NCBI GenBank assembly: GCA_903813345.2
Contig: CAIIXF020000010.1
Location: 22,891,181 to 22,955,180, forward strand
From: Owenia fusiformis
Lineage: Eukaryota; Annelida; Polychaeta; Sabellida; Oweniidae
Length of the DNA stretch: 64,000 nt
Reading direction: 5' to 3'
The translations under genes were made by a program, and so were the position numbers. A model generated the notes under the pieces. That model saw nothing but the letters and a program-made list of their open reading frames with translations, had not been told where the DNA came from and searched no databases. Positions 44,500 to 64,000 of the stretch are shown here, in pieces. How positions within the stretch are numbered: the first letter of the stretch is position 1; each line of letters starts with the position of its first letter.

Positions 44500-44854
44500 T
44501 TCTCGATTTCCGGGCTACCCCAGTGACGTCATTATCAGTCATTGATCAGTTTTAATATACTTTGTCGTATTACAAATACCTATGGTTCATCCGAGGTACG
44601 ACACCCCAGTAATCTATTGGTTGTATAAAGAGAAAGAGACCTACATGGTATAATTTTGGGACGGATGCAAAACACATGAGTTGTAGATATTACAATATTG
44701 TTTATTTACGTTTAACTTTCAGTTTCGTCTCATTTACATATATGGCGGGTAAAATTCTCACTGAGCATGCGCAATGGGCTTAAAAGGATTCTGGGAAGAT
44801 GTTTTAAAATGGCAGCGGTAATTTAAAAGTATAATAATAATAATTTCTGCAAAT
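44500..44854. promoter_or_regulatory. Shared bidirectional promoter of METTL7-like and Treslin genes
   Basis: The two start codons face away from each other, 355 bp apart. The spacer has a perfect cAMP-response palindrome TGACGTCA at 44524-44531 and an NRF1-like GCATGCGCA at 44765-44773. It also has TTCTGGGAA near 44789 and a YY1-like AAAATGGCAGCGG at about 44806-44818. It is locally richer in CpG than the flanks and has no clear TATA box. This pattern fits a housekeeping head-to-head promoter. The ATG within the YY1-like word would start a five-codon upstream frame (MAAVI, then stop) ahead of Treslin. Confidence 0.55.
44524..44531. promoter_or_regulatory. Consensus CRE palindrome
   Basis: TGACGTCA, 25 bases upstream of the METTL7-like start codon on its strand. 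It matches the CREB/ATF full site exactly. Function is inferred from the match and the position only. Confidence 0.5.
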
Positions 44855-45583
44855 ATGGATACCTTACAATCAGTGAATAAACTACTGTTGTTGATAGACG
44901 TTAGAGGAGGTAGACAGGCAACTTCTGGCAAGTTTCCTCATGAGAGAGCAGCAAATCTAATAAGTTTGAGCACTTTGAAATTGTTGACCTATTTTTCACA
45001 CAAAAATCAACAAAACAATTTTGATACTCTGAAATGGGCTTATAAATTCTTCAACAGCAGCACAGAGGAATTTCTCCAAAAGCAAAATTTCTCACAGTTT
45101 ACGACTAAGTTATATGAGGACTTTGAAATATCAGTTGAGTCTCGGATACAGAACGAACATGAACACTTACTCATTGAGCAGGAACGAGCAAAAATGGCAA
45201 TGCCGACATCAGCTGAAGAAGTTATGTCAAGTTTAGTAGTCAGGCAACTGGAGGACCAACTAAAACAAATTCCAACTGAGTTTGAATGGAATCGACCAAG
45301 TATAACATCACCGGTAAAGTCATTACTTTGCAAGGGAAAAGTAAAAGCGACGGACCATGACAATAATATTGTTGTAATATTTACAACATGTCCACATTCT
45401 TTGCATCAGTTGCAACTTTTTCTAGGATATGAGGAAAAGGAGGATTTTGATGCAACATCTTCAGATCTTATTATTGATTCAATTATTTTGCCAAAAATCG
45501 CACGAGAACTGAATGGTGTTAGAGTGAAGCTATTGTATGTTGACATGTCGGCTGATTCTCAGATCAACAAGAGTGTCATATCG
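44855..45583 (+). CDS. TICRR: Treslin exon 1
   Basis: ATG at 44855 to donor TCG|GTAAAT, 243 codons. Encodes the conserved N-terminal domain. The frame stays open past the donor to 45670, but that tail overlaps a repeat. Confidence 0.93.
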
Positions 45584-48500
45584 GTAAATACATTGTACAT
45601 TTCTTATTATCTGTATCCAATAGTTCTGTTTGATTCTCAGGGCTCTCAGCAGAAAATATTAAGGGTGTGATAGAAACATCTTACATTACAGTTCAGTTGT
45701 GATTAATCATATTTATATATTTTATCCTTTTTAACATGCTATTGTTGTGTATTCAAGTGAAGTTTAGACTATGAAAACAATCATGATTAACCAATAGGCT
45801 GTAGTGGGAGCTAAATAGACTGTGGTGCTGCGCTAGACTATATCCTATTTAGTCTGAATTATATTCAGACTATAAGGCACCTATGTTAAAGTTTGGCAAT
45901 ACTAAATATTTGTTTACATAGGAAGTGCTATTCAAAATGGCCGATTGGGTAAAATTAATTTGCACATTTTTACTTCAGCTAGCTTTATTTCCACTTGACA
46001 ATATGCTTTGTTACTTTTTATTGCTTTTAATTGTACCTTACTATTTCATTGAAATTTTGTAATGTTTATTTTATTGAAGAAATGATTCCTCTAATTGATA
46101 ATTTTGTGCAAAAAATTTCACTGCAATTTCCACAGGAAAGTAGTACATCATAACAGACTGACTTCTAGTCAGTCTGTTGGATACATACTAGGTGCTGCGC
46201 CACAGTCCTAAAAGCCTGGCGAGAGCCCTGAATCTAGTACACAAGTAGATTGTAATTGTCAAGGCTTCAAGATTTTCTCAAATAACATATGATTTTGGTA
46301 AACTATGGTTAGACTGCTGCGTATGGAGCTCCCGGTTAATCAAGAATATAATTAGATAAATGTTAGTCTCATTTGTTTTATGTTTTCAAGGAGCTTGAAG
46401 GCATGGACTTAGTTAACAAAGCAATGATGAAGACAGGTGGATGTGTAGTCCCTATAACAAGTCTTTTGCAGCTCGGTACCACAGCTATCACACATATACA
46501 CCCCCTGTTTAGACAAATACAACAAAATCATCAATCCCCTAAAACAACTAATGCTGAAAGCCAGACCATTGTCTCAAAAAGAGTCTTCAATGCCAAGGAT
46601 TCCAGCAATAGCTTAGAACAAGGAGATCCTAACCTAAGTGATTCAAATCTTGGATATGTTAGCACAGACTTAGATGATGACATAATATCAGGTCAACATG
46701 ATGAGTTGTGTCTACCATATGGATCTATTCTAAAATATTACACAGATATCAAACAAGTTGAAACTGCTGGGAGTTATGATTGTCAGCTTGTGATTCAACA
46801 AGGTAAGAAAAAACATTGAAAGAGACAAAAAAGAAAAATATGAAGCTTCATTATATATTACATGCATATTTATTCATTAAATTATAAATATTATTCTCTA
46901 TCATACATATTACATGTCTATAAAACATATTGTGTCAGACAATGAGTCACTTACTCAGTTTGTGAACTATTGGACACCCTTCCCCATAAAAGTACAGTAG
47001 ATCCCATGCTTACACACCCCATTCTCTTATATGTCAAAGCACTGGAAGTTTATGACGTTATACAAGTATCATTTTTCACAAAAATCATCATAGTTTCCAG
47101 AATTAATTTGGGAAACTGAAGTGTCTGGATGATATGTTAAAATTGTATTGTTAACCTAAATATCTATATTTTCGGGTGATATCATTTCTTTTCAATAAAT
47201 TGTTTTGCTTTCTCGAAGGTCTGATAAGTTCTAGACTGTGTTCAGACGAAATGTCGAGACGTAGTGATTCTAGAGGTATATCTGCATGGTATGGTCAATG
47301 TTTCTATGAAAGGGAAAGGACCATATTCTGTCAAAGCATTGAAATAAATGAGTACATGTACTTCCAAATCTCGAGCGGAAAATACTGCGTCGTAAGAGAA
47401 TGGGGTGTAGCTTGTAGCAAAACATTTTAAAAGTGAAATGTGATGAAAAATCCATATAGACCTTTAACACTGGCTTAACAAAATACCATTTTCACTGTAA
47501 CTCCATTCTTAACGAGGCAACAACAGGCACAATTATTAGATAATTTTAACATGCCATTGGGATCAAATTAGAACATCAAAACAACCTTACAACAACCAAA
47601 TTTAAAAAATCAAATATCATGTCAAATAATTAATAAATCAATATTGCCTGCTCTGATCTGTATACTGTACATATTTAGTAAATGCATATGTTTCAGGCAA
47701 ATGTTTCAAGTTCCTGTGCAGTGTGAAACTACAGTCAATCTTGGATGAGCAGCACCTTTCCTCACAAGATATTACTATCAAGTAAGTGAATTCTTTTAAA
47801 AATGACCAGTTTATATACCTGAGTACCTCTCCAGAGATGGCTTTTATTGTATCTAAAACGGTATTCCTCATGTACAAACACAATCAAACAAATGTGTGAT
47901 AAACAAAGATATTTGTAGGTAGTAAATATTAATGGATTCACTTTTTAGAAATTATTACATTGTATCTTATGCAATATGGGCAATGATTAAAGGCAGAATC
48001 AGATCTATGGAGGTGACAAAATTACAAGCAACATGTACAGTTGAATAAATTTAAACGTCATATTATATATGCCATAAGTCATTGAATCAAGGTATTATAA
48101 TGATGCTGATATACACAAACCAGAAAAACAGCTATACTTTTAAAATTTGGAGTTCTATAATCCGTTTATGAGTCAGAATTTATGTTTTACAGTGACATAA
48201 TTCTCATAGTTATAAATATCATGTTCTTTACAGGGAATCAAAAATAACACCACTTCCAAGAAAATCTCCAAGGAAACAATCAAAGACTCCAAACTCAACC
48301 AGAGCATCATACAACCAACCAAACACAGTGCAGCCAAAGCACCAAAAAGAAAATAGTACCTCAGAAAATGCTCAAGCAAGGTTGATATTACGGGGCTCTA
48401 TAAGACCAAGCCAGGTACCCCTGGACTATATGGTTGGGTCAACAGTTTATAGCTGTGTTGAGAAGTTAAAGGATGAGCGTTCACCAGATAGGTTCTCGTT

Positions 48501-51500
48501 CCAGGAGTTCCTCAAGCAATTAGCTTACTGCCAAGTTGACATGGTATGTAAATCATTTTGCAGGTTTTTGCAGACTAATCTTGACTAAGTTGATAGAAAG
48601 CCCGGACTTATGGAATTTTATCATTTCTGGAGTTACAATGCTTTTGCATTCATCAGAATAAGTTGAACATTGATAATTGCAGGTACAATACTATTCTATG
48701 CTTTTCTTTCAGCCATGTCAAAAGATATATAACCGCTGATTTTCTCAAGTATTGTAATTTTTGTTACTAAAAGCTATTGCCAAAGTAGCCTTGTATACAT
48801 TGTGATTATGATAAATGTTTATGCGATTGGTACTCTACTTACATGTATCAAGAGCATTTAGGTTTACCTAATGAATTTTATCTTGGATATTCTAGAACTA
48901 ATTTTTATGCAGGGTGTCGATAAAGTCTTTACACTTTACGCAAACTTTGCATTGTACTTGTAAAGAGATTTTATGGACACCCTGTATGTTAATAAATATC
49001 CAATAAATTCTCTTGACAGTCCTGGAGGCCATAAAATTATTTTCTGATTCCAGGTAGTAGATTTGATAACCTCACCTGTTCATATCCCCAAGACGTGCAT
49101 CTTGCGACCTTTGACCCCTGTGTCTGCAACCCTAACTGTGATGATGTTTGAGCAGACACTACCCCTAGAGAAGTCACTTTTAAAAGTAGGACAGCGTACT
49201 AAAAACAAAGGCATGACAGAATTTGTTGAAGAATCTCTGAGACATATTGAGAAAGGGAAAAAGAAACCTAGTGTGGCTAGATCCAAAGGTGAATACATCT
49301 GATAGAATGCACCAAGTAAATGATTTGAAAATTAACCAGCATCTAGTTGAAAACACACCCTGTTGTGAATTTTGAAAATTTCTAGTTATTTGATCTTTTG
49401 TTTTTAAGTATTGAGTATTTCTTGGTCAGAATTGCTTAAGTTTTGTATCCAAATGAAAAAATCTTGAGAATGTTGAGAGACATGACTATGAAGCAATATT
49501 AAGTTACAAATAATCTGCAATTTAAGATGGAGGTGGGGTGTGAAAGGGGTGGGGTTTGATTCAAAGCAGGATTTATTGAGTATTTATAATGTACAATGTT
49601 TACAATTCCTGATACACTAGTTTCTGTTTCAGATGATGGGGAACCCAGTAGAATGAGTTTTAGGGAGAGTATGGTGGATACCTGGTACCAACCTTCACTA
49701 CAATCCCTTGTCAGCAAAACACTCATGGACAAATTAAACAGGTATTTCTTGTATATTTTTCTTTATAAAAACAACATGCTGCATGGACAAACTGCAAAGG
49801 TGATAATTTTAGTGAATGGCACGATTTAGTTATTTTATAAAAGAAAAATAGATTTTTATGACACCACCATAATTGCATTGACTTAATGTTATGATCTCTA
49901 ACTTTTTTGTGGCCCATGTTCAGCAGTTGGTGGTTGGTGGTTGGCATCTGCAACAAATGGCAGGTGGTCACATTTTGTACGTTAATGCCTTGTTTTTTTG
50001 CCTTATTTTATTGTTTCATATTTTAACATATTACTTGAAATAAGAAAATTTTGACCAAAGCATTAAAATAGATTATTATATTATTATTATGGAATTATTT
50101 TCAAGTGTTTACGTATTTTCAGCCCACAGTGCAGTAAAGAAGAGATCGCCCTATTGAAGAGATTACAGAGTTATTACCGTAAAAAAGACAAGCCAATGGA
50201 CATTCATAACATGCGCAAAAAGTCCAGTGGGGAAATCAAAACTAGAGGTATTGTAACAAGGTTTTTTCTTCATATTTCTGATTCATAAGAAAACTTTTTT
50301 TTTGTAATTATTGCTTCTTGAATTGAGTTTAGAACAAGGGTATTTGAAAATAAGGTAAAAGTTTGTCCTAAAAATCACAATGTTTCAGAAAACTACCTAC
50401 TGAAAATGAATTACACACATCTCAACTTCATAATGTTGGGTAAAGACTATAGTATAAGCCAACATGATTTAATCTTGTAATATTGTCACAGTGGAACGCA
50501 CAGGGTCCAAGGAAAGACTACCAAGGGCCCCTAGTATGGTGGGAGAAAGAGCCAAGGCAATCATGGCAAAGGGACTGGAGATTGAGAGGAGGAAAGAGCT
50601 TGAAATGGAGAAAAAGAAGGAGGAAGATGAGATTAGAGCTGTTGATAATGAGAAGAAAAAAGAAAAGAAGATCACTCTGAGTAAAGTTTGCAGTGTTGGT
50701 GAGTGGTTAACTACTTTTGATTTAGACCCAATCTATTCCAAACCACCACTTATATATATTTAATTTATGTCATATTGCATTCCCAAAAATCATTCACAAT
50801 TAATTTTCTTTATCAAGGTTATTACCATGATGGCCAAAGTGGTTCAAAACTTTTCACAAGGATTTAAATAAAGGGTTAAAATTAAAATAAGTTAAATATT
50901 AAAAAAAAATTATTAAGAAAATGTTGAGGAATGATTTGAGAATGAGAAACACATTCAATGAATTATACAATCCTTCATAAATTGCATTGTGCAATAGTTT
51001 GATTTAAATGTTGATTGCAGAGTTCAAGAGTGAGGCAGAACTAATTGATTATCTTCGACATAACTATGAGACTGTACTAGCTGAGAAGGGCAACCCTTTG
51101 ATGTTTGCACAGAGTACAGTCAGTGTTACATCACACTACTTCAAGTCACAAACTGTTGATGAACCAGCAGTAAGTTTTACATGTGATGATTCAGTGAAAA
51201 TCATTTATGATTTATCCTCATTTGCTTACTCCTAATTACAATTTGTAGGAGGATGAATGAAGGATGATGTCAGGGATTTTCACTTTAATGGAATTTATCC
51301 ATCGTAATAACCCTTGTACCAGAGAGAGCTGCATGGTTGTGTGCATTAACTTCCCCATTTCTCAGTACTCGGTGCACCTTTTACAAAATAGCACAACTGA
51401 CCGCATCATATACACTTCAGCCAGTTTTCTAGTCAATATCTTTCTTAAATCCTATGATAAGACCACATTATAAATCAAACAAAATTCTTGACAAAATTTC

Positions 51501-54500
51501 TTTTTTTGGTGAGAAACGGTTTTATGACAAAACAAACAATTTATGATATATAGACTAATAGCAAGAAAGTACTGGTTTTCATTGTGTGTGCAATTTTTTG
51601 CATCCCTCAGCACAACCTCTGGGTAAAATGGCAACTCTCCCTGCTGCCAGAATTCTAGAAATTAAAACTTTAAAGTCTAATCCTTCATTTGATAAGCTGC
51701 ACAAAAATTCACATGAATATTTTTCTGGCCGTTAAATCAGTGTTAGATAATTACATTCACCATTTATCCATTTTTGTCTACTTAATTGTCTTGATTTTAT
51801 TAATTTATAATGTACACAGTTCAGTATTTTTGTATATGTTTATTTAGGAGAAAAGCAGAGAACTACTAGCTGCAAACTTGTGTCTCGACAGCAAGGCAAT
51901 ACGTACCAAGTACAATAAAGCTTTTGATGATGTTTCTCTAGCAAATAAAAAGACTGAGTGAGTACTCCATATCAACATTAAAGTCTTCTATTATTTGGTG
52001 GAATTTCCAGCTTCAGGCTTTCAAACTTTGCTTCAGCTTCCTATTTCAATCATGTTAAAATGAATCACAAAAGGAATACAAAAACTAAAGAAGTTTATGT
52101 TAAGAATCAATATATCAGTTGAAGAGTGTTCCATATACGTGTCACTCTTTGTAAGGAAAATCCATCTCCATAGAACTATTTGGGTTTGTAGAGGGTGTTT
52201 CATATATTAGTACAGTACATATGTTATACTATATATTCTGAATTTCAGGTACCAGTTGCAGACATTGCTATTGATTGAGATGGAGGCTGCCAGTACTACA
52301 GAAGATGAAGAACCATCAGAAGATGTCATTGATGAGGTAACTAAAATATTCTGATTTTACATGCGTTTTGTTTTAATACAAATCATACCTCTGTTTCATT
52401 CCCACTAGAGTTGGGTCAGGTGTGGGCTGGCTGGTCTCTGGTTTCACCTCCCGTGTCCGATCATGGGTCATATACTTAAAAATAGTGTTTCTGATAGATT
52501 GACAGCATTATCAAGTTCTTTTACTTTTAATATATCAGTTGTAAAACAGGGATTGTACACTGGTGGAAATATTTAAAATACATGTATTAATATACCCAAT
52601 GTGTAGATGGACTGCTGAACATACAGGACTAATTGCAGGCCTTGGACTTGGAAAACATTTGATCACCAATATGCCAAATGAACCTGTTGAATATTTGAAT
52701 GGACAAATACAACATATCGATGAGCTAATATCATCTGAGAGTCCAAGTATTTTCCAAACTTCTGATTTCAATGTGGATGGGGTTGGCATCTTTTATTTTA
52801 GAATGTAGAATTATCAATTTTATCCGCTATCTTTGAAAACCAAAGTTATAATGTGTTGGATTAATTTACACTTGCAAACTGAAATATGATCCAGAATAAC
52901 GCGTATTAACGGGTCTAATATAATTATTAGTTATCTTATGGATCATAGAAAGCTTTATAAATATAATTCTGGTTAAAGGTGCATATGAAATAAGAGTAAA
53001 TAGGGCTGTAATTATTTGCACAAAAAGATCCAAACAAAAAGTCTATCCCCCCCCCCCCTATTTGATTCTTTAAAGATGGAGTTACCTTTAGTTTTATCTG
53101 TTTTTGTTGTTTTTAATTAAAATCCCATACCATAAAATATTTTGATCTAAATATGAATATGAATCTTTACTAATTGCCCCCTGTTTTCTGTTATTAGATT
53201 GTGACTATGCTGAGAGCAGTCTCATTTATGGAGGACCCCAACTTTATAGGAAACTATGTACAAGATGTGCTCCTTGACAAGTAAGTGGCTATATGGGCCA
53301 GGGAGGGTGTGAGGTGAAAACACAAAGAAAGCACAAATCGAAGAAAAATCTTGAAACCAAAATACTAGTTGTGTCTTGCATATTCTACTTTCTGGTTCAT
53401 ATCTTAAAGTGTGTTTATAAGAGAAAGTCTAGGCTAAGCATAATACTTTTACATGTATATGGAGATCAACTACCTTCATGCTATCATGAAATATAATTAC
53501 GCAAAATAATGAACTAATTCATGCAGTGATGCTTTATTATATAAGGACTTTTTTATATTATCTAGTATTCTATCAGTGACTACTCGACTAGGTGTCATGT
53601 TATTTTCCTCTATAAGCATGCTGTAATAATTAGCTGGCCAGGTTTAACTAACTGACTCTGGGCAGGCACTTATGTCACAAATGCTGGTTTCCCCAACACA
53701 GTGCTTACAATATTCTCTTATTTCAGCTATGGGGCTACATCTCCGAGGCTAATGCTACGCATCTATGAAGAACTGGGTCTGACAGCTCCTTCAACTCTCC
53801 CTCAATTGTTCTCTCCTAATAGTTCATTCACGAGTAGTCAAGAAAAGTCTGGTATAGGCTCAGTGCTCCAATCTGTGGGTACATCACAACCAGGCAGTCA
53901 GTCATATCTACTTGATGAATGTTCAATGGATGTCGTTGATCCACGGATCAAAAGGTATGTGTATACCATATCGCCCAAAAGCCATACCAAATGTCCAAAT
54001 ATAAGATCAATGCCATACAAATGTCCAAATATAAGATCAATGCCATACCAAATGTCCAAATATAGGGCCAATGCCATGCCAAAAGTCTTGTGAGACTTGA
54101 TCCAAGCTATGATTTGTTCAAAGTAGAATAGTTCATGTCCCTGGGAAAAAGCTTATAATCAAACTGAAGAAGAAGGCAGATCTTTGAAGAAAACGATCCA
54201 AAACAACTTCAAATTAGGATATTTGTATATCCTAGACCAATGCCATACCAAAAGGGAGAGATAACATATTTTCCACATCCATTCTCATACCAGTAAGCAG
54301 TAAAACCTAACCATTACCATATCTCACAATTTGAGGGGGGGGGATTCTCATACCAGATCCTAAAATTTGGTCCATTGCCAGACCAACTGTCAAAAAAAGG
54401 TACCCCACTTGCGCCTAGGATCCCTGTGAAGCCTTATATACAGTGAACCTCCCGGGAACAGGGGTTTGGTTTTGGTAATTCAATGTCGGAACGTCGAAGA

Positions 54501-57500
54501 TAGGATTTTTCTTTTTTCCTTATTTCATGCGTTGTAGGCAAAATCCACACGACTTTTTTTCTCACAAACGTGTATCAGTATCATATGTTTTAAAAATGTA
54601 CATGTTTGCGAAAAAATAGCTCAGAAGACATCAGCATTGTCGATTTAATTACTCATTTAAGTTACACAAATGGTTTGGGTTAAAAGTGCAGATCTTAACT
54701 GTTTTTTGAAAAACCGTTTATGTAACTTAAGTGAGGAATTAAATCGACGATTTGATTGTCTTCTGAACTATTTGTTCACAAATATGTACATTTTCTTAAA
54801 CGTATGATACTGACATGATGTGGGAATTCTGCCTACAACGTGTGAAATAAGGAAAAGAGAAAAATCGTACCTTCCATGTTCCGACATTTTGTGACCAAAA
54901 CGAACCGTTTCGGTAAACAGCGTAATCGAGTGGATCACCAGTGTACAGGTGATTTTGTCCACTTGCTTTGAAGGAATGATGTCATTGTTTCCATGTTAAA
55001 ATTATCATTTCTAATCTAATAATTTTGCCTGTTCTTCTTTTTGCCTATTCAGGTCCTACAGGTCAGGGTCCTTGGAGGTGAAATCAAAAATGTTATATAT
55101 ACAGGGTGGTCCAAAAAACAGTGATCCCCTGCAACGTGCTATATTTTCCTTAATACTTGCATGAATAGACTCATATTATCACATGTTGTAGATATAGAGA
55201 AAGGTCTAAAACTTTGGTTGATGCCATAATTTATTCTCCGTCTTAAATTTTGGAGAAATTACAAGAGTTTAACAAACATGCCTGAAAATTAGATATTGTA
55301 CAAAATTTTACCAATGCGATTCATGGAAATTAATGAAACACATCGGATGATCTTAAACAGCTTTCAGTTAGGGATACAAGTTTAAAACCCTACCCAAAAG
55401 GGACACTATTTAAGCAGAAAACACATCTCACACTTTCATTGATCATTTTGAAGCAAACTGTATCAGAATTATAAAACTCAATGGAACAAAGATATATTAA
55501 ATTACCCTGTCTTGAGAACTTATGTTAATAAATCAAAAATGTCTTTGAAAGAGAGAGTTATTTAAATATCCAAAATAAAAATTACAGGCAAGCAATTTGT
55601 AGATTTAGGCTTAGTTCCCACAAGTTACATATAGAACTTGGTCGTCATTTAAAGCCAAAGCCAAAACCTGTAGATGAACGTTTATGTAATATTTGTGGTA
55701 TTTTAGAAGATGAACAACACTTCATCATGATTTGTAAGAAAAACACTACAGAAAGAAAAATTTTGTTCGACACCCTTACACGATTTAATTTTGTAGGCAG
55801 TCCTGACATTATTTTTAAAAAACTAATGTCTCACAAAAATTCTTATGTAATTTTACATTTAGCAAAGTTCATCTATAATTCACTCAAAAAATTGGATTAA
55901 TGTGTCAACGATGCATCACACTGATATTTAAATTTCTGTCAAGTTATATTTGTATTTTACAATTATCTTGTATTCTGTATTTTACATTTGATGATGTAAT
56001 TAGAATTGTATTTGACAACAACTTTATTTTTGTATTCAATAGTTAGTTTAGTCTTAGGTCAGTTTTGTAGATTGTAGTTTTTAGTGACTAATGTGTCATT
56101 GTAATGACATCAGAGAGTCAATAAAAGATATATATATAATCATTCAACAGTTCAGGGGTATGTTTCCTACACCAACAGTTAGAGGAGGGCCTCTTGTGGA
56201 AGGAAGTTGCCCCCTGTGACCAGGAATCTGAGAAACCCTTCATCAAATATTTTTAAATAATCAAAAGAAAATCCAATATTCCATGTTTTTAGCCATATTT
56301 CATGAGAATTGGTTCATGATTTATAGAGATATTGACATTTCAGGATCATATAGGGTTATGTTCACGATTTCACTGGAAAATGTTATCGTCTAGGGAAGCT
56401 TAGAAGATTTAAGATGACACCATACTTATTTTCCCTAATTAAATAGTATATACAAAGTAAAAATACATGTGTTTTGAGGTGTCCTTTTAAGATTATAATT
56501 TGTTAAATAATTTATTTTAGGCAGCGTAAGGTGGTACATCATCCTGCCTTGGCTGGAATAAAACATGCCAAACAAATTCAGTTCAAGAAGCCTACACAGA
56601 ACAATAAGGTATGTCCACTACATCCATCAGTAAATACTGTAATATGATCAGGCCCAATATCATAGCTGTTAAGAAAATTGTTAATTTGACAAATTATGTC
56701 AACATAAATAACATCAAGAAGTGGAGACATATTGTTAAAGCCATGGTATTGTTATGTCAAGTGGTGACATATTGTTATGGTCTCCGTTTTTTTGCGACGG
56801 TGGTTGGAGGTTGGCGTCCGGCGGTTGGTGGTTGGAGGTTGGCGTCCTTACAACTTCCTATAACTTAACAAATACTGTTTAGCGTTTTTACAACTTCCTA
56901 TAACTTAACAAATACTGTTTAGACTGACTTCAATTTTTTTCTAAATCATCTACTTGTTCTCAGAAGTTCAAATCTGACTTTAGATTTGACATTTGACCTT
57001 CAATGACCTTCTCAAGGTCAAAAAGGTCTTTTTTCAACTTGCTTCACATTGACTAAATTTTTTTTCAAAATCATCTACATGTTCTCAGAAATTCAAATCT
57101 GACTTTAGATTTGACTTTAGATTTGACATTTGACCTTCAAATCTGACTTTAGATTTGACATTTGACCTTCAATGACCTTCTCAAGGTCAAAAAAGGTCAA
57201 AAAGGTCTGTTTTCAACTTGCTTCAAATTGACTAAATTTTTTTTTCAAAATCATCTACGTGTTCTCAGAAATTCAAATCTGACTTAAGATTTGACATTTG
57301 ACCTTCAATGACCTTCTCAAGGTCAAAAAAGGTCAAAAAGGTCTAACTTGCTTCAAATTGACTAAAAAAAATTTTCAAAATCATCTACGTGCTCTCAGAA
57401 ATTCAAATCTGACTTTAGATTTGACTTAAGATTTGACATTTGACCTTCAATGACCTTCTCAAAGTCAAAAAAGGTCAAAAAGGTCTTTTTTCAACTTGCT

Positions 57501-59109
57501 TCAAATTGACTTATTTCTTTTTTCAAAATCATCTACATGTTCTCAGAAATTCAAATCTGACTTTAGATTTGACATTTGACCTTCAATGACCTTCTCAATG
57601 TCAAAAAAGGTCAAAAAGGTATTTTTTCATCTTGCTTCAAATTGACTAAATTTTTTTTCAAAATCATCTACATGTTCTCAGAAATTCAAACATGACTTTA
57701 GATTTGACATTTGACCTTCAATGACCTTCTCAAGGTCAAAAAAGGTCAAAAAGGTCTTTTTTCAACTTGCTTCAAATTGACTAATTTTTTTTTCAAAATC
57801 ATCTACATGTTCTCAGAAGTTCAAATCTGACTTTAGATTTGACATTTGACCTTTAATGACCTTCTCAAGGTCAAAAAAGGTCAAAAAGGTCTGTTTTCAA
57901 CTTGCTTCAAATTGACCAAATTTTTTTCAAAATCATCTACATCTTTTCAGAAGTTCAAATTTGACTTTACAAGTTCTCAGAAGTTCAAATCTGACTTTAG
58001 ATTTGACCTTTGACCTTCAATGACCTTCTCAAGGTCAAAAAGGTCTTTTTTCAACTTGCTTCAAATTGACTAATTTTTTTTTCAAAATCATCTACATGTT
58101 CTCAGAAGTTCAAATCTGACTTTAGATTTGACATTTGACCTTCAATGACCTTCTCAAGGTCAAAAAAGGTCAAAAAGGTCTGTTTTCAACTTGCTTCAAA
58201 TTGACTAAAAAAAATTTTCAAAATCATCTACATGTTCTCAGAAGTTCAAATCTGACTTGACATTTGACCTTCAATGACCTTCTCAATGTCAAAAAAAGTC
58301 AAGAGGTATTTTTTCAACTTGCTTCAGATTGAACAATTTCTTTTTTCAAAATCATCTACAAGATCCCAGAAGCTCAAATCTTCAAAAACCTTCTTAAGGT
58401 CAAAAGGTATTTTCCAACTTGCTTTAAATTGACCAAATTGTTTTAGGTGGTGACATTTTGTCATGTTAATGCCTTGTTGTAATAATTGGAGACATATTGT
58501 AATAGCCATGGTATTGTTGTAATAATTGGAAACATATTGTAATAGCCATGGTATTGTTGTAATAATTGGAGACATATTGTAATAACCATGGTATTGTAAT
58601 AATTGGAGACATATTGTAATAGCCATGGTATTGTTGTAATAATTGATGACATATTGTAATAGCCATGGTATTGTAATAATTGGGAGACATATTGTAATAG
58701 CCATGATATTGTTGTAATAACTTGCTACACTTTTGTAACCATTTATTGAATAATCATTTATATGAGATATCAGACCATTGTTTTTTGATTCTTCTATATA
58801 ATACAATTGTCAAAAATATAATTTTGTACTAATTCTTTTTTCAGAGACGGAGTAGTAAAGGGTCAGCTAAGAAATCTTCCGCTAAGAAAAAGAAGATGGC
58901 TGCTGCAGCTAATGAGACTGAGTCAGACATGAAGCATGTACGTCGAAGTTTATTCGATATGGGAGCTGCACCACCAGGTGGCACTAAGCTAGAACGAAGA
59001 CATTCATTTGCAATCACAGATAAAAAATCTAAATCCACTCCTAGTAGACCAAAGTCACGCCGAACCCCAAGTAAAAAGAAAGTATCACCTGGCTCAGCAA
59101 AACCTAAAG
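44855..59109 (+). CDS. TICRR: Treslin (TICRR), replication-initiation factor, 3' end not in view
   Basis: Fifteen exons splice in continuous phase: 44855-45583, 46391-46802, 47697-47781, 48234-48543, 49054-49288, 49633-49741, 50123-50247, 50492-50698, 51021-51169, 51848-51957, 52249-52336, 53198-53280, 53727-53954, 56521-56608 and 58845-59109. They give about 1074 codons. The N-terminus (LLLLIDVRGGR, then LKLLTYFS and KWAYKFFNS) matches vertebrate Treslin. Residues of about 740-960 form the Sld3/Treslin domain (AELIDYLRHNYETVLAE, EYQLQTLLLIEME, LMLRIYEELGL). Later, HVRRSLF and LERRHSF match the vertebrate segment just before the CDK-regulated TopBP1-binding sites. Treslin, with MTBP and TopBP1, loads Cdc45 at origins in S phase. 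The last exon ends mid-codon, and the expected TPVHK-type exon was not found up to 64000. Human Treslin is about 1,900 residues, so a large C-terminal part is missing here. Confidence 0.93.
45638..46230. mobile_element. hAT-like non-autonomous element in Treslin intron 1
   Basis: Ends CAGGGCTCTC (45638-45647) and GAGAGCCCTG (46221-46230) are perfect inverted repeats. About 593 bp with internal small palindromes (AGTCTG/CAGACT). A clean 8-bp duplication was not seen. CAGGG-type ends suggest a hAT relative. Confidence 0.45.
46391..46802 (+). CDS. TICRR: Treslin exon 2
   Basis: Acceptor TTATGTTTTCAAG, donor CAAG|GTAAGA, 412 bp, phase 0 to 1. Encodes ELEGMDLVNKAMMKTGGCVV onwards. Confidence 0.9.
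46803..47696 (+). other. Treslin intron 2
   Basis: About 890 bp. No repeat or exon stands out. The 84-aa frame at 47176-47430 has no recognisable features. Confidence 0.6.
47697..47781 (+). CDS. TICRR: Treslin exon 3
   Basis: Acceptor ATATGTTTCAG, donor ATCAA|GTAAGT, 85 bp, phase 1 to 2. Encodes GKCFKFLCSVKLQSILDEQH and a short tail. Confidence 0.88.
48234..48543 (+). CDS. TICRR: Treslin exon 4
   Basis: Acceptor GTTCTTTACAG, donor ATG|GTATGT, 310 bp, phase 2 to 0. It begins with a basic Ser/Thr-Pro stretch (PLPRKSPRKQSKTPNSTR) and continues into LDYMVGSTVYSCVEKL and QEFLKQLAYCQVDM. Confidence 0.9.
48909..48987. mobile_element. Tiny mariner-like MITE
   Basis: About 79 bp with inverted ends AGGGTGTCGATAAAGTC.TTTAC and GTAAAGAGATTTTATGGACACCCT, in Treslin intron 4. 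No coding capacity. Confidence 0.5.
49054..49288 (+). CDS. TICRR: Treslin exon 5
   Basis: Acceptor TCTGATTCCAG, donor AAAG|GTGAAT, 235 bp, phase 0 to 1. Encodes VVDLITSPVHIPKTCILRPL and a basic end. Confidence 0.9.
49633..49741 (+). CDS. TICRR: Treslin exon 6
   Basis: Acceptor TTCTGTTTCAG, donor AACAG|GTATTT, 109 bp, phase 1 to 2. Encodes RESMVDTWYQPSLQSLVSKT. Confidence 0.88.
49850..50005. repeat. Short copy of the GGTTGGTGG composite repeat
   Basis: Contains cagttggtggttggtggttgg followed by gtggtcacattttgtacgttaatgccttgtt. These two phrases also flank the satellite at 56.8-58.5 kb, but here the satellite core is missing. Lies in Treslin intron 6. Confidence 0.5.
50123..50247 (+). CDS. 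TICRR: Treslin exon 7
   Basis: Acceptor ACGTATTTTCAG, donor TAGAG|GTATTG, 125 bp, phase 2 to 1. Encodes CSKEEIALLKRLQSYYRKKD and onwards. Confidence 0.88.
50492..50698 (+). CDS. TICRR: Treslin exon 8 (charged helix)
   Basis: Acceptor ATATTGTCACAG, donor GTTG|GTGAGT, 207 bp, phase 1 to 1. Rich in Glu and Lys (ERRKELEMEKKKEEDE), likely a long charged helix linking to the Sld3/Treslin domain. Confidence 0.9.
51021..51169 (+). CDS. TICRR: Treslin exon 9 (start of Sld3/Treslin domain)
   Basis: Acceptor TGTTGATTGCAG, donor CCAGCA|GTAAGT, 149 bp, phase 1 to 0. Encodes EAELIDYLRHNYETVLAEKG. Confidence 0.91.
51170..51847 (+). other. Treslin intron 9
   Basis: About 680 bp of AT-rich DNA. Nothing recognised. 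Confidence 0.55.
51848..51957 (+). CDS. TICRR: Treslin exon 10
   Basis: Acceptor TATGTTTATTTAG, donor CTGA|GTGAGT, 110 bp, phase 0 to 2. Encodes ELLAANLCLDSKAIRTKYNK. Confidence 0.88.
52249..52336 (+). CDS. TICRR: Treslin exon 11
   Basis: Acceptor TCTGAATTTCAG, donor GATGAG|GTAACT, 88 bp, phase 2 to 0. Encodes EYQLQTLLLIEMEAAST. It matches the vertebrate 'LQALLRLEM' segment. Confidence 0.92.
52535..52789 (-). pseudogene. Possible BED-finger/hAT transposase remnant
   Basis: An 84-codon minus-strand frame in Treslin intron 11 contains SEVWKILGLSDD, then CCIC, a KYSTGSFG stretch and a late C..H. The order vaguely recalls a BED-type zinc finger of hAT transposases. The paired His residues are not in canonical positions, so it would be degenerate at best. 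Confidence 0.25.
53198..53280 (+). CDS. TICRR: Treslin exon 12
   Basis: Acceptor TTTCTGTTATTAG, donor GACAA|GTAAGT, 83 bp, phase 0 to 2. Encodes MLRAVSFMEDPNFIGNYVQD. Confidence 0.9.
53727..53954 (+). CDS. TICRR: Treslin exon 13
   Basis: Acceptor TCTCTTATTTCAG, donor AAAAG|GTATGT, 228 bp, phase 2 to 2. Encodes ATSPRLMLRIYEELGLTAPS and a Ser-rich tail. A repeat copy begins within about 10 bases of the donor. Confidence 0.91.
53960..54456. mobile_element. CCCGGG-ended repeat, copy B (left end lost)
   Basis: Matches the 43144-43706 element from 'atatcgcccaaaagccat' to the right end CAGTGAACCTCCCGGG. It has an internal triplication of about 33 bp (caaatgtccaaatata...) at 53990-54080. It starts about 6 bases into Treslin intron 13. 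Confidence 0.65.
54463..54945. repeat. Foldback element, copy B
   Basis: Two arms of about 210 bp (54463-54675 and 54712-54920) are near reverse complements. Left AATGTCGGAACGTCGAAGAT matches right CTTCCATGTTCCGACATT, and left CCTTATTTCATGCGTTGTAG matches right CTACAACGTGTGAAATAAGG. The central loop is about 35 bp. Homologous to 39481-39890. Confidence 0.75.
55089..55125. mobile_element. mariner-type terminal repeat remnant
   Basis: TACAGGGTGGTCC followed by AAAAAACAGTGATCCCC is a typical mariner/Tc1 left end. I could not find the matching right end. Confidence 0.35.
55540..56140 (+). mobile_element. 3' fragment of a non-LTR retrotransposon (LINE)
   Basis: An open frame (55561-55900) encodes GRHLKPKPKPVDERLCNICG followed by ILEDEQHFIMICKK, ending in LKKLD and TAA. 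The C-x2-C-x7-H-x4-C pattern with the ERLC...EDE.HF..C context is typical of the end of LINE reverse-transcriptase proteins. An in-frame stop just upstream and the lack of the RT core show it is dead. The 3' tail ends AATAAAAGATATATATATAA near 56140. Confidence 0.65.
56521..56608 (+). CDS. TICRR: Treslin exon 14
   Basis: Acceptor AATTTATTTTAG, donor AATAAG|GTATGT, 88 bp, phase 2 to 0. Encodes RQRKVVHHPALAGIKHAKQI. It corresponds to the vertebrate basic segment after the Sld3/Treslin domain. Confidence 0.9.
56930..58440. repeat. Roughly 135-bp satellite, about 11-12 monomers
   Basis: The anchor word tcatctacatgttctcag recurs with spacings mostly of 126-156 bp. Each monomer has TTTGACCTTCAATGACCTTC, then TCAAGGTCAAAAAAGGTCAA, then AAAGGTC. 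It carries no coding frame. The TGACCT/AGGTCA words equal nuclear-receptor half-sites. Confidence 0.9.
58478..58721. repeat. 40/37-bp minisatellite, six copies
   Basis: The unit AATAATTGGAGACATATTGT followed by AATAGCCATGGTATTGTTGT recurs at 58481, 58521, 58561, 58598, 58638 and 58675. The 160-codon minus-strand frame over it (YYNMSPII... type) is an artefact of the repeat. Confidence 0.85.
58845..59109 (+). CDS. TICRR: Treslin exon 15 (basic, CDK-type sites)
   Basis: Acceptor TTCTTTTTTCAG, donor CTAAAG|GTAAAT, 265 bp, phase 0 to 1. Encodes RRSSKGSAKKSSAKKKK, then HVRRSLFDMG, LERRHSF and TPSRPKSRRTPSKKK. TPSR and TPSK fit the CDK S/T-P-x-K/R consensus. Confidence 0.88.
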
Positions 59110-59610
59110 GTAAATATTTAAAAAATCTTTTGTTATAGCGGTTTGTGGGTCTTAATTAACCCTTTATGCCTGTTCTTTGAAGGCATCAAGCATTCCCAGC
59201 AATTATTTTAAAACTTGGACAAAATATGTCAAGACATCCTTATTTTTGTCAATTCGCAAAATCTGGTTGTAAAGGGATTTTCAACTAGTAAGATGCCAAG
59301 ATATGTTGAAATTTTCAACTGGGTCCACCTCTCAGTTGCTAGGATAATCACTGACATTTTCTCAATAGGACCTTATGTAATATTATTTGGTCCTTGGGTT
59401 TAAAAAGTTAAATCACGTGTGCTCCTATTTCAGCTAGATAACATGTTTTTTTATTCAACACTCTTCTGCTTAGACTATAATGCTAGTAAGGTATTTTACA
59501 AACTTTCATGTACATGGATTCAGTGACGAAAAATGATAATCTATAAAAAGAAACATGTGGTAAGTTATTACCAGAACATCTTTAAACATACTACAGTATT
59601 TAAAGTGACC
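59110..59610. other. Gap between last Treslin exon and the convergent gene
   Basis: No clear exon. A possible tiny Treslin terminal exon (acceptor TCCTATTTCAG at 59433, then CT AGA TAA) would end the protein ...KPKAR, but it lacks conservation evidence. The minus strand carries AATAAA at 59455-59450, serving the cGAS-like gene. Confidence 0.5.
59450..59455 (-). terminator. Polyadenylation signal of the cGAS-like gene
   Basis: TTTATT on the plus strand reads AATAAA on the minus strand, about 155 bases after the stop codon. Confidence 0.5.
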
Positions 59611-60265
59611 TCAGTCTAAAGGTATATCTTGTAACATAGGTCTAGTTGTCTTGTTTTCAAGTTCATTTATGATTCTCTGAAGCAGGAACACTGCCGCTCT
59701 CACGCTCATGATACACTGAAACGATGCCGTTGTCACATATTTCTTGAGAACATTCCTGAATGGTAAAGATATGTCATCGAGACGTGTCCTGGCGTAGTGA
59801 TGATGCTCACGGAATATGGACTCCAGTATTTTCTGCGTGTCTGTTGACATGAGGCATGGTATGATAGCGAGATATCCTGGCCAGACATCACTAGTTATTG
59901 GGCTGTTTGCAGATATTGGCTGGAATGGCACTAGGATTTCTAATGCACTTCTAAAGAGTTCATCTTTCATGTATTCCTCCTTAAGTTTCATTCTCTCTTG
60001 ACTTGACATTTTCTTAATGATGTCATCTACACTTGAGAATTCTGCTGTTGATACTCCCATGGATACAAGAGGATTCGTGTTTTTGGTACATTCAGAAAGT
60101 TTGTCTGAAAGTTTGTTTTTCATCAAATGGAATCGTACAAACAGGACAAGTCTTTCATGCTCAGTTTTAACACTAAAGACATCTGCTCCAAACAGGTCAG
60201 ACATCTCGGCACATATCTGTTTGAAACACATTCCCAGACTGCCAGGTTGATGTTTGACATCACAC
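59611..60265 (-). CDS. cGAS-like exon D (C-terminal lobe)
   Basis: Minus-strand acceptor ATTATCATGAAG before G|TGTGATGTC, 655 bp, stop at 59613-59611. Encodes CDVKHQPGSLGMCFKQICAE, a long helical region and the ending MLQDIPLD. Confidence 0.85.
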
Positions 60266-63200
60266 CTTCATGATAATGAAAAAAATGTTTAGAATTAGAA
60301 TCTTGATTGAGTACAAATGTGTCGATATGATCAAAATATTAGATTTTCATCTCCACCTGAAGGGCCAAAGAGCAATAATTTGATGGAAAGATAAACATAT
60401 ATTCATCGACATTATTAGTCAGTCCGAAAACAAGACTGCATGTAAATACTAAGTCATCTATCTATTTAAAGCCCCACTCTGCGTATTTTCAATGTTTTTA
60501 GGCAAAATAAAGACTTTTATATGAATTCTATAGAATGTCCAATGTATTGATAAGAACCCTATCTTTCATTTGACACCAACAACAGCTCAAACGGACCACA
60601 TCAAAGCTTACAATAATTAATCAAAAAATAGTTTTTATCAATGCCATTGAAAGATGGCGAAGTTGTTTGTACTACATGATACATTCATTTTTATGAGGTG
60701 TCGCCATCTTTTAAATTAAAAGTAATTAAAAACATGCACTTTGTTTAGCATGTGCATGCATGTCTAATGATCTCTGAACTTCAAATGGTTTTTTCTTTGT
60801 GAGTTATTTTTTTCTTGGTTCAGTATTAAAGCAAATCAAACTTTGTGTCATATTCCAGTGTGTGAGTAATATGTTTCATTGATAATTTTTTCTTTTTTCT
60901 TCTAAATTAAGTATAGTGGGGCTTTAAGGATATGATGTTTTAAAAAAATAATATTAAACCTTTTATCATGATGGAGTACTATCATCTTTAGTATGTAGGA
61001 ATCATCCATGTAGTGCCCTCTAGCCAGTGCACACATGTGGAGCATGTGGTTCACCAGTGTCCTTGTGACAAGCTTCAGTGTCATCTGTATGGTGACATGG
61101 TTAGGTGACATAGAGGTGACAAGACCCTGTTCATGGGTAGAGCAAGAAACTGGCCAACAGTAGTGTCCTAATTCACACTTTTGGAGACTCTTTGGTACCA
61201 GCACACAGGATATGTTCCCTTCTGACAACTCAGGCAATTCATCAAATACAATCTGAAATATATTTGACTTATAATGACTCGGTCACTGATTATCATTGTA
61301 TGCATGTTTATTTGAAGTCCTTTTAATTCCCATTCTGCCCTTGCATTAAGTAACAGAGATATTGCATATCAAATATAGGAAACACAATGAGATGTTGTAT
61401 CCATTAACTATAAATTTAAGAGCAAGTAAAGTTCATGTTGTTTACTTTTTATAGTGTGATTGAAGGCTCAATGGTCACATTCAAAAACATGGAAAGAATT
61501 AATAAAGTACAGTACAGTTCTCAATGAGTTTTGCTTTTCATATAATAGCTCAAAGAGTTATGTTGGCTATTGTAGAGGTGGGTATGACAGTAAAAATGTA
61601 GAGAGTTTTATTATGCACCTCATTAAAATACTCAAATCTGATTGGTTAAGAGCTGCAGGGTCTATTGCCATACGTGGCAGCAAGATCTCGTTCTATCCAG
61701 TATTGAAGCAACGAGATCTCCAACCATCCCGTATGCCAGAATACCTATCCTCGAAAAAATTACTTTTGACGAGTCCATTTGTCGATGACGTCATTTTCTT
61801 AGAATCTCTACCATGTTGAATTTGAGACGAATGCAAGGGAGAAATGATTTGATGATATGAGAGAAGGGGATTTCAATTCAATTTCCTGTGATTATACTGA
61901 CAAAGGGTAGGTGGCGCTAGATAAGGCATCGGCCAAACTTATTATGTATGGAGGGAATATTTAAGAATAAGGCCAAATGAGAGAATAAATGGAATTTTTG
62001 ATTGTCGAACACCAGGGTTTTTATAGGCTCGGCTTCTATTTTAGTAGACCCATTCTTTAAAATAGCCTAAAGTATTTCTCAAGGGAGGTGCATAATAAAA
62101 TAAATACTGGATGACCATGAGGTGGATATGCCAGAATACCTATCCTCGAAAAGAAATACTAGGCTCGGCTTCGCCTCGCCTAGTATTTTTTCCTCGGATA
62201 GGTATTCTGGCATATCCACCTCATGGTCATCCAGTATTTGTTTAATACCTTGTGGTTTGGGTTATATCGGTCCATCTGTAAACAGAAGGTGACATCAAGG
62301 CTATATGAACAAAACCCTCCTCCTCCTTGTAGCTCTATGTTAGCATTAGGCATAAACGTGATGGGAGTCAGTCCGTGTCTTGATATCACTGTTCTTAAGT
62401 ATTTCACCATCACATAGCTGGATATATGATTATTCTGATTTACAATTCCTAGTGGTTCAATCACAGGTCGCCCCTTACTTTTTGCATATTCTTCCTGAAA
62501 CAAGAACAAAATATGCCGTTGGCATAAAAGTCAAATGTCACTGGTCATTTTCAGGAGAAGGTAATGGCTGTGGCTGTTGCCACATAAATCTCGTTTTCAA
62601 AAGTCTATGAAAATCGCTTATCATTGAACTTGAAATTTTTAAACATGCAAGAGCTGACTAGTGCCAAGATCTGCTAAGGTTCTGGGCATGCTTGGTTAAT
62701 AGGATAGTTTCTAAATAGCAGAAAAATCAATGAAATCTCGTGCTGCCATCTTTTATTCAGCTTTTAACTTGGGCTAGAGCTCCATTCACTTACATGGTAA
62801 AATCTTGGAAAAGTGGCTTAATTTCATGATTTATCAAAGTGTGTTTGTTGAATCTGTATAAAACTTGAATGATATACCACATGATGACCCTGTTTATGTA
62901 CATGTTGTGATTAAACATGCAAATGTTGATTGACATACAAATAATCCACGGTTTTAAAGAATTTTAGCATTGCATCTATGGACATTTGGCCCAAGTTTTT
63001 TTAAATTGTCATAGAAAATTATTCAAATTACATAACTGTGTAAATCAAAGCTATTTTAGGAAAAAACATTTCACTGAATTCAAATATACCATTTAAAAGA
63101 AGGTAATGTAAGTCATTAGGGGTCTAATATGCAAGTCTCTTAAAATCTCACGAAAAACGAGATTTAGCGAGATTTCAAAAGCTATATGGAAACTATACTA

Positions 63201-64000
63201 TTAAATGGTGGCCATTTTGCTCTTTCAAAGTGCAATATTTATCACTGTGTGTTAGTTTTTATCAAAGGCTAGCTCTGCTCACATCTATGTACAAGACAGA
63301 ATATCAAGATATATTTTGAAATATATAGCTCTCAAGTTTTTATTATTACCTCCTGTTTCCTTAAATGATGTTTTACGTCATCTGGTACCCTAATATGAAA
63401 GTGTCCTCTTGAACAGCCAGTTTCTATGACTACATCTTTTGACATGGCCAACACTTCCAATGAGTCGAATTCATCCAGTTTTGAAATCTTTGTGCCATCA
63501 TAGTAGCTCCCTGTGTGCAGTTGTTTGGTCACCTTGAAGTAGGGATCGTAATCTTCGACTATTTTACATATGTCATCAACATGAACTTCAGCTAGTTTTT
63601 CTTGAAGGGTTCTCTCTTCAATAGTTCCTTCAGGTATTATAGCATCATGAACCTTTTGTACAAATTCACTCACATTCTGACTTGCATCAATAGATTTCAT
63701 TATCATTGTTAAATCATCCATGTTTTCATTGATGTTACCGGGTGCTACTGCTTCTTTTATGAAAAGTTTGATGAAGGTGCTGTAGCTTGGCAATATGGAG
63801 ATACAAAAGTCAGCCATATTAATTGTTCCAGTTTCCTTTGCCTGCATCTCTATGGCAACCAAGAGCTGTTTAATATCCGTGACATCCTCACCACATCCCA
63901 GAATTCCTGCAAGGATCATTCTAGGCCAAAATGTTTCCATATCTGCACGATTCTTTTTTGTCACATAGTCCCAAAAATTTTCCATCTCAGAGAAGTTATC
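59611..64000 (-). CDS. cGAS-like receptor / Mab-21-domain nucleotidyltransferase, 5' end beyond window
   Basis: Four minus-strand exons (64000-63350, 62494-62249, 61252-60960, 60265-59611) join in phase. They give 609 residues from the first ATG (63985). The frame stays open upstream (DNFSE), so the start is uncertain. The Mab-21 fold is clear: TGSYYDGTKISKLDEFD holds the GS motif (G159, S160) and the metal-binding pair E172/D174, twelve residues on, as in cGAS. SYSLDVTFCLQMD supplies the third acidic residue, D279, equivalent to the cGAS ISVDITLALE strand. SCVLVPK matches the cGAS FYLVPK strand. DDSYILKMIVLHH followed by SLGMCFKQICAEM matches the helical C-terminal lobe. No zinc-thumb insertion is seen. 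An intact triad suggests an active enzyme making a cyclic or linear nucleotide signal in innate immunity. The first 150 residues are unrecognised. Confidence 0.88.
60466..60927. mobile_element. piggyBac-like MITE
   Basis: TTAA (60466-60469) precedes AGCCCCACT. The right end is AGTGGGGCT followed by TTAA (60924-60927). The 9-bp perfect inverted ends with TTAA duplication fit piggyBac-type insertions. It lies in the intron between cGAS-like exons C and D and has no transposase. Confidence 0.6.
60960..61252 (-). CDS. cGAS-like exon C
   Basis: Minus-strand acceptor AAATATATTTCAG, donor ATAAAAG|GTTTAA, 293 bp, phase 0 to 2. Encodes IVFDELPELSEGNISCVLVP, a Cys/His-rich strand KCELGHYCWPVSCSTH, then DDSYILKMIVLHHDK. 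Confidence 0.87.
61606..62100. mobile_element. MITE with TTTTATTATGCACCTC ends
   Basis: A perfect 16-bp inverted repeat, TTTTATTATGCACCTC (61606-61621) and GAGGTGCATAATAAAA (62085-62100). About 495 bp in the intron between cGAS-like exons B and C. The 119-codon plus-strand frame over it is not a gene. Confidence 0.7.
62102..62239. repeat. 138-bp hairpin next to a splice donor
   Basis: Two 66-bp arms (62102-62167 and 62174-62239) are near-perfect reverse complements, with AAATACTGGATGACCATGAG at the outer edge and a short loop. The right arm stops 9 bases short of the exon B donor (GT at 62248-62247, minus). The arm phrase atgccagaatacctatcctc also occurs at 61734 inside the adjacent MITE. 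Confidence 0.85.
62249..62494 (-). CDS. cGAS-like exon B (third catalytic aspartate)
   Basis: Minus-strand acceptor TTCTTGTTTCAG, donor CACAAG|GTATTA, 246 bp, phase 0 to 0. Encodes EEYAKSKGRPVIEPLGIVNQ, then SYSLDVTFCLQMDRYNPNHK. Confidence 0.88.
62495..63349 (-). other. cGAS-like intron between exons A and B
   Basis: About 855 bp, AT-rich. No repeat, exon or RNA gene recognised. Confidence 0.6.
63350..64000 (-). CDS. cGAS-like exon A (N-terminal region plus GS and ExD motifs)
   Basis: Runs off the window edge. Donor CAGGAG|GTAATA at 63350, phase 0. From the ATG at 63985 it gives 212 codons: about 150 residues of unrecognised helical-looking sequence (MENFWDYVTKKNRADMETFW at the start), then HTGSYYDGTKISKLDEFDSL. 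A short pyrimidine tract before the ATG (ACTTCTCTGAG) could also be a weak acceptor. Confidence 0.86.

Follow-up and report, generated by a model that had tools for sequence, protein, structure and literature searches.

The 64,000-nucleotide stretch of Owenia fusiformis DNA analyzed here (the window) holds at its edge, at 59611-64000 on the minus strand, part of a gene whose protein is probably a divergent, active cGAS-like receptor (cGLR). The protein fairly likely belongs to the cGAS/Mab-21 superfamily as a strongly diverged member whose active site is preserved, and from its sequence it is predicted to be a receptor that produces a cyclic dinucleotide. Of this, the sequence itself shows the exon structure, the GS-ExD-D motif and, in their order, the nucleotide-binding blocks of the C-terminal lobe (C-lobe). 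In the part of PMC9980059 (Li et al. 2023 preprint) used here, more than 3,000 animal cGLRs are reported across nearly all phyla, with more than 200 in some bivalve genomes. Because animal cGLRs are already so widely catalogued, the gene is another member of a known family, and mainly an unusually distant one.

The active-site motif

Residues 162-179 of the window protein read HTGSYYDGTKISKLDEFD, a motif of the cGAS type. An earlier note on this DNA had described a GS motif with E and D 12 and 14 residues past the Ser and a third Asp in a SLDVTF strand. Direct reading confirmed these residues as G164-S165, E177 and D179, and as D284 within YSLDVTF. The acids were called E172, D174 and D279 in that note, which counted from the Met at residue 6 and thus gave numbers five lower. 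The offset from GS to ExD is 14 residues in the window protein, in human cGAS and in the solved cGLR1 8gjy. The distance from ExD to the third Asp is 105 residues in the window protein and in 8gjy, and 92 in human cGAS. When residues 126-180 were aligned with a profile of four family members, Z values of 14-21 were obtained, and none of 1,000 shuffles was as good.

The active-site residues that define cGLRs in the part of PMC9980059 used here (GS, [DE]h[DE] and a third [DE]) are all present in the window protein. The literal pattern given there, h[QT]GS X8-20 [DE]h[DE]h X50-90 h[DE]h, was not matched: the long spacer has 102 residues where 50-90 are allowed, and His/Ser occupy two of the 'h' places. 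Human cGAS also fails the pattern as it was coded here, and in 8gjy the spacing is just as long and a Lys stands at [QT]. Since both of these depart from the pattern, the miss does not exclude cGLR membership.

Gene structure

Four exons spliced in phase had been proposed, and translation of the window bore this out, with 614 codons and a stop and no internal stop. The three introns are all GT-AG, with lengths of 855, 996 and 694 bases and phases of 0, 0 and 2. Each of exons 1 and 4 has an open frame of about 217 codons, and shuffling the region base by base 1,000 times gave open runs of at most 169 codons. The guanine-cytosine (GC) content per codon position of the coding part is 0.48, 0.33 and 0.40 and differs from that of the introns. 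In the exon-4 acceptor ATCATGAAG, the pyrimidine tract does not adjoin the AG. The N-terminus is absent from the window because the reading frame runs past base 64000. With its 5' end beyond that base, the gene cannot be called 'intact', as it had been.

Intron 2 contains a 61-nucleotide inverted repeat at 62095-62246, with arms 30 nucleotides apart and an end 2 bases from exon 2. A 26-nucleotide piece of this repeat (62127-62152) was found again at 61732-61757. In intron 3, an element at 60466-60927 has 24-nucleotide inverted end repeats (TTAAAGCCCCACT...) and by eye resembles a miniature inverted-repeat transposable element.

The C-terminal lobe

The proposal of a C-lobe in cGAS/Mab-21 order stood in part. 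The lobe was undetected by Pfam, phmmer, hhalign or profile alignment, and its order is supported by a block consensus. This consensus holds 15 positions, with gap ranges, that are common to human cGAS, a second cGAS, MAB21L1 and 8gjy, in the blocks F/CxLV/LxK, WxxS/QFS/AxxExxI/L and S/NYHxKT. Three of the four family sequences were run and scored 15/15 each. The window protein matched 12 of the 15 positions in this test, which was picked after the profile tests had failed, with LVPK and WxxSxSxxE of the window protein already seen and with positions that derive from the family. Among 1,000,000 shuffles of the C-region, the maximum was 11, reached 21 times, and none reached 12. The controls scored 5 (N-extension), 6 (C-tail) and 6 (reversed C-region). 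When the 44 window frames of at least 90 codons were scored in the same way, the exon-3 frame gave 12 and the next best gave 9. The blocks are independent of splicing because they are contained in the single exon-3 reading frame. From these sequence blocks, we take the C-lobe to be present and strongly diverged.

Functional residues, zinc thumb and charge

The human cGAS residues named in the parts of PMC4897736 and PMC10855445 used here are T211, E225, D227 (once printed E227), D319, K362, R376, S378, S380, E383, K414, S434, Y436 and K439. By alignment, 10 of these 13 are kept in the window protein: T211 (T163), E225 (E177), D227 (D179), D319 (D284), K362 (K320), S378 (S335), S380 (S337), E383 (E340), Y436 (Y385) and K439 (K388). 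Because the alignment was built on the blocks of the consensus, this count and the block test are not independent of each other. R376 is replaced by P333 and S434 by D383, and K414 could not be placed. In the part of PMC10855445 used here, S434 is described as variable even among mammals, and K362, R376 and S378 as not conserved in arthropods. An Arg at R376 is not fixed in the family either, because 8gjy has Cys at this place. The T211Q/R376I change may be one of linkage; a literature search for it gave no supporting paper.

The zinc thumb of vertebrate-type cGAS, which we take to be H, C, C and C in the C-lobe, was not found in residues 341-383; these have four His, one Cys and no CC pair, and the thumb is absent for that reason. 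The earlier description of a nucleotidyltransferase of the cGAS/Mab-21 type, with all three acids and without a CC/C zinc-thumb cluster, thus agrees with the present reading. The acidic triad by itself proves no activity.

A ligand other than long DNA had also been suggested. The lack of a zinc thumb says little on this point, because shrimp and fly homologues are reported without one in the part of PMC12928593 used here; the distribution of the zinc thumb is worded differently in the corresponding part of PMC10855445. The charge of the protein gives the suggestion some weight, because the core is near-neutral and the spine segment acidic, and nucleic-acid-sensing cGLRs lie at an isoelectric point (pI) above 8.5 in the part of PMC9980059 used here, by another pI method than ours. 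As calculated with Biopython, the pI is 6.6 for the window core and 4.6 for the spine segment (126-160). For comparison, the human cGAS fragment has a pI of 9.1 and its first 50 residues one of 9.9, and the core of 8gjy has a pI of 8.3. An auto-active acidic cGLR, with a pI as low as 5.0, is thought to bind another ligand (same part of PMC9980059). Judged from its core and spine segment against the sensors reported there, a trigger other than nucleic acid is possible for the window protein.

Divergence from family models and known structures

The earlier note had proposed a Pfam hidden Markov model search; no model reaches its cut-off, and the divergence is greater than that note implied. On the fragment from the motif onward, PF03281 (Mab-21) gave 12.4 bits and E 0.17, with a gathering cut-off of 24.1, and PF20266 (Mab-21_C) gave no match; the protein is below the cut-offs of both Mab-21 models. 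In the two controls run, 8gjy and human cGAS, both models matched at E 1e-26 to 3e-49. The matches found in the libraries were weak but agreed with one another. The PADLOC oligonucleotide-cyclase model gave E 0.0035 with the core. The top PDB matches were cGAS chains, at E 0.028 for the whole protein and 0.011 for the core, over 48 residues. Seventeen PDB sequences had an E value no higher than 1; of these, 13 are named cGAS, two cGLR1, one Mab-21 and one 'uncharacterized' (4jlx), the last called porcine cGAS in the part of PMC4897736 used here. The hhalign comparison of the core reached a probability of 57.6% and E 1.4e-5, carried by the motif region.

Several results weigh against a diverged cGLR. 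The whole protein found no Pfam family at E 1, and its matches in NCBIfam were unrelated and below cut-off. The PDB similarity extends over about 50-65 residues, and no PDB match was significant for the whole protein. By profile alignment, the C-lobe gave Z -0.4 to 0.1, no better than shuffles, and was exceeded by the C-tail, one of the negative controls, at Z 2.4; left-out family members gave Z 44-52. The hhalign probability of the C-lobe alone was 0.04. A HYFIPxLNLF-like stretch, which the comparison sequences have, is missing from the lobe, as are the H and T of SYHxKT. The middle segment was also at shuffle level (Z 1.0-1.5; left-out known members, Z 8-17). Six scans of viral and prokaryote collections, which are not animal collections, gave no relative: four were of viral_contigs and two of genome_contigs, and one of each was checked against 8gjy and not the window protein. 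AlphaFold models of exons 1 and 4, made singly and without relatives, were of low confidence (predicted local distance difference test scores of 39.5 and 50.2), and Foldseek found nothing at E 0.001 or better with the low-confidence exon-4 model.

In contrast to the window protein, MAB21L1, 8gjy and cGAS chains match each other over about 275-330 residues, with E values of 3e-33 to 2e-9. Faint similarity between members of this superfamily nevertheless has precedent in the searches with MAB21L1 and 8gjy. With MAB21L1 as the query, MID51 came up at E values of 6e-4 to 2e-3, MID49 came up at 0.32, and cGLR1 8gjw and the Mab-21 chain 7lt2 were not listed at E 1. With 8gjy as the query, MID51 and MID49 were found at 0.007 to 0.49.

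Comparison with known systems and alternative readings

The window protein shares with animal cGLRs the GS activation-loop motif, ExD, the third Asp and the C-lobe blocks, and its spacing from ExD to Asp is that of cGLR1 8gjy. It differs from them in lying under both Mab-21 Pfam cut-offs, in its core pI of 6.6 where the nucleic-acid sensors of PMC9980059, in the part used here, exceed 8.5, and in its long N- and C-terminal parts without known domain. According to the same part of that paper, catalogued cGLRs have varied ligands and products, some carry repeat domains, and 87% are without an added signalling domain; whether acidic cGLRs have ligands other than nucleic acid is stated there as an open point. 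With vertebrate cGAS, the window protein shares LxTGSYYxxxKISxxxEFD at the same spacing and 10 of the 13 named active-site residues, whereas the zinc thumb is absent, Pro and Asp stand at R376 and S434, and the spine segment is acidic. The donor-site E, Y and K are also found in MAB21L1; unlike the window protein, MAB21L1 has no GS motif, third Asp or acceptor-site T/S. In the part of PMC4897736 used here, MAB21L1 has Q169 in place of the third Asp and A235, V231 and Q233 at the acceptor contacts. Its active site is given as complete and putative in section 5 of PMC9980059, but not in the figure legend of that paper, as far as the parts used here go.

The chief rival is a catalytically silent scaffold of the Mab-21 fold, with the catalytic residues kept for nucleotide binding only, as proposed for MAB21L1 and shrimp Mab21. 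The heavy divergence of the protein and the replacement of R376 and S434 would suit such a role. No nucleotidyltransferase activity was seen by the authors of the MAB21L1 study (part of PMC4897736 used here), and for shrimp Mab21 proteins the part of PMC12928593 used here reports an action on IKK-epsilon and gives no evidence that they are enzymes. However, these precedent proteins are without catalytic or acceptor-site residues, whereas the window protein keeps the third Asp, the T and both Ser, and we consider a non-enzymatic scaffold unlikely.

The limitation of clear homology in the profile test to residues 126-180, together with a tail and an N-extension without known domain, could also point to a wider CD-NTase (cGAS/DncV-like nucleotidyltransferase) or Pol-beta nucleotidyltransferase with a non-nucleotide acceptor or a linear product, and with a C-lobe of separate origin. 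This is very improbable given LVPK, WxxSxSxxE and SYxxK, which stand in the Mab-21-type order beyond chance. A decaying pseudogene or a wrong joining of exons is hardly to be expected: although the window does not reach the 5' end, exon 4 has an acceptor that departs from the textbook form and introns 2 and 3 have inverted repeats resembling transposon inserts, the 614 codons hold no stop or frameshift, the phases agree, the codon-position GC is unlike the introns, and the catalytic residues are selectively kept.

Proposed mechanism

For a divergent cGLR, the activity, product, ligand and pathway that we infer are as follows. A ligand would bind the outer surface of the protein, and the activation loop would become ordered. 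E177, D179 and D284 would hold two metals, and these would activate the nucleoside triphosphate donor, which would be stacked by Y385 and held by E340 and K388. The acceptor nucleotide would be contacted by T163, S335 and S337. The enzyme would then make a cyclic dinucleotide to be read by a STING-type receptor. In the least certain step, the product or trigger may differ from that of vertebrate cGAS, given P333 at the place of R376 and the acidic spine.

A bolder version, tentative and rather doubtful, would place the protein in a cGLR branch beyond the curated Mab-21 models. Its ligand would be other than nucleic acid and bound through a non-basic surface and the N- and C-terminal modules, and its cyclic dinucleotide would have altered linkage or bases, since R376 is replaced. 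With most of the named catalytic and nucleotide contacts kept on a scaffold below the Pfam cut-offs, the protein is a candidate for an acidic class of cGLRs with ligands other than nucleic acid. Surveys built on Pfam models may miss such members, and surveys by iterated PSI-BLAST might find the window protein.

Features of the gene and its surroundings

Table 1 Features of the putative cGLR gene, with positions in the window.
Feature	Position	Strand	Basis
Exon 1 (N-terminal extension, spine segment, GS...ExD half of active site)	63350..64000	-	217-codon open frame, open at window end; donor GTAATAAT
Exon 2 (mid catalytic domain, third Asp in YSLDVTF)	62249..62494	-	Acceptor TTTCAG, donor GTATTAAA, in phase
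Exon 3 (C-lobe signature LVPK, WxxSxSxxE, SYxxK)	60960..61252	-	Acceptor TTTCAG, donor GTTTAATA, in phase; 12/15 consensus positions
Exon 4 (remaining C-lobe, C-terminal tail, stop)	59611..60265	-	Acceptor ATCATGAAG, in phase; stop 59611-59613
N-terminal extension, residues 1-131, acidic (pI 4.4), incomplete	63608..64000	-	Pfam: none at cut-off; PDB: none below E 0.6
G164-S165, activation-loop GS motif (LHTGSYYDGTKIS)	63506..63511	-	Direct reading; phmmer alignment to cGAS chains
E177-F178-D179, first two metal-binding acids	63464..63472	-	Direct reading; aligned to cGAS E225/D227
D284, third metal-binding acid, in YSLDVTF	62294..62296	-	Direct reading; aligned to cGAS D319
C-lobe signature block C315-K388 (CVLVPK, WPVSCSTHEQGL, SYILK)	60986..61207	-	12/15 family consensus positions; 0/1,000,000 shuffles
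C-terminal tail, residues 473-614	59611..60039	-	Pfam and PDB: none at E 10

A Treslin/TICRR gene lies on the plus strand at 44822-59138, with the N-terminal domain PF21854 (E 9e-15) at 44822-45670. In the analysis, the animal origin of the DNA was read from this Treslin domain next to the cGLR gene, from the cGLR family as such and from the way the introns are arranged. The basic Ser/Lys-rich exon at 58833-59138 was given to this gene by eye and is tail to tail with the cGLR gene. Two tandem arrays, at 57136-58381 and 58474-58720 (135-base and 40/77-base units), precede the last of the Treslin exons that were seen. A methyltransferase-domain exon (Methyltransf_11, E 7e-17) is found on the minus strand at 43954-44514, head to head with the Treslin gene. 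On the plus strand, a large exon with C2H2 fingers (Pfam matches below cut-off) at 32516-35008 and an upstream open frame at 21745-22077 resemble, by eye, a gene of the basonuclin type. An open frame at 55532-55900, also on the plus strand, resembles, by eye only, the C-terminal end of the reverse transcriptase of a long interspersed nuclear element (CNICGxLEDEQHFI).

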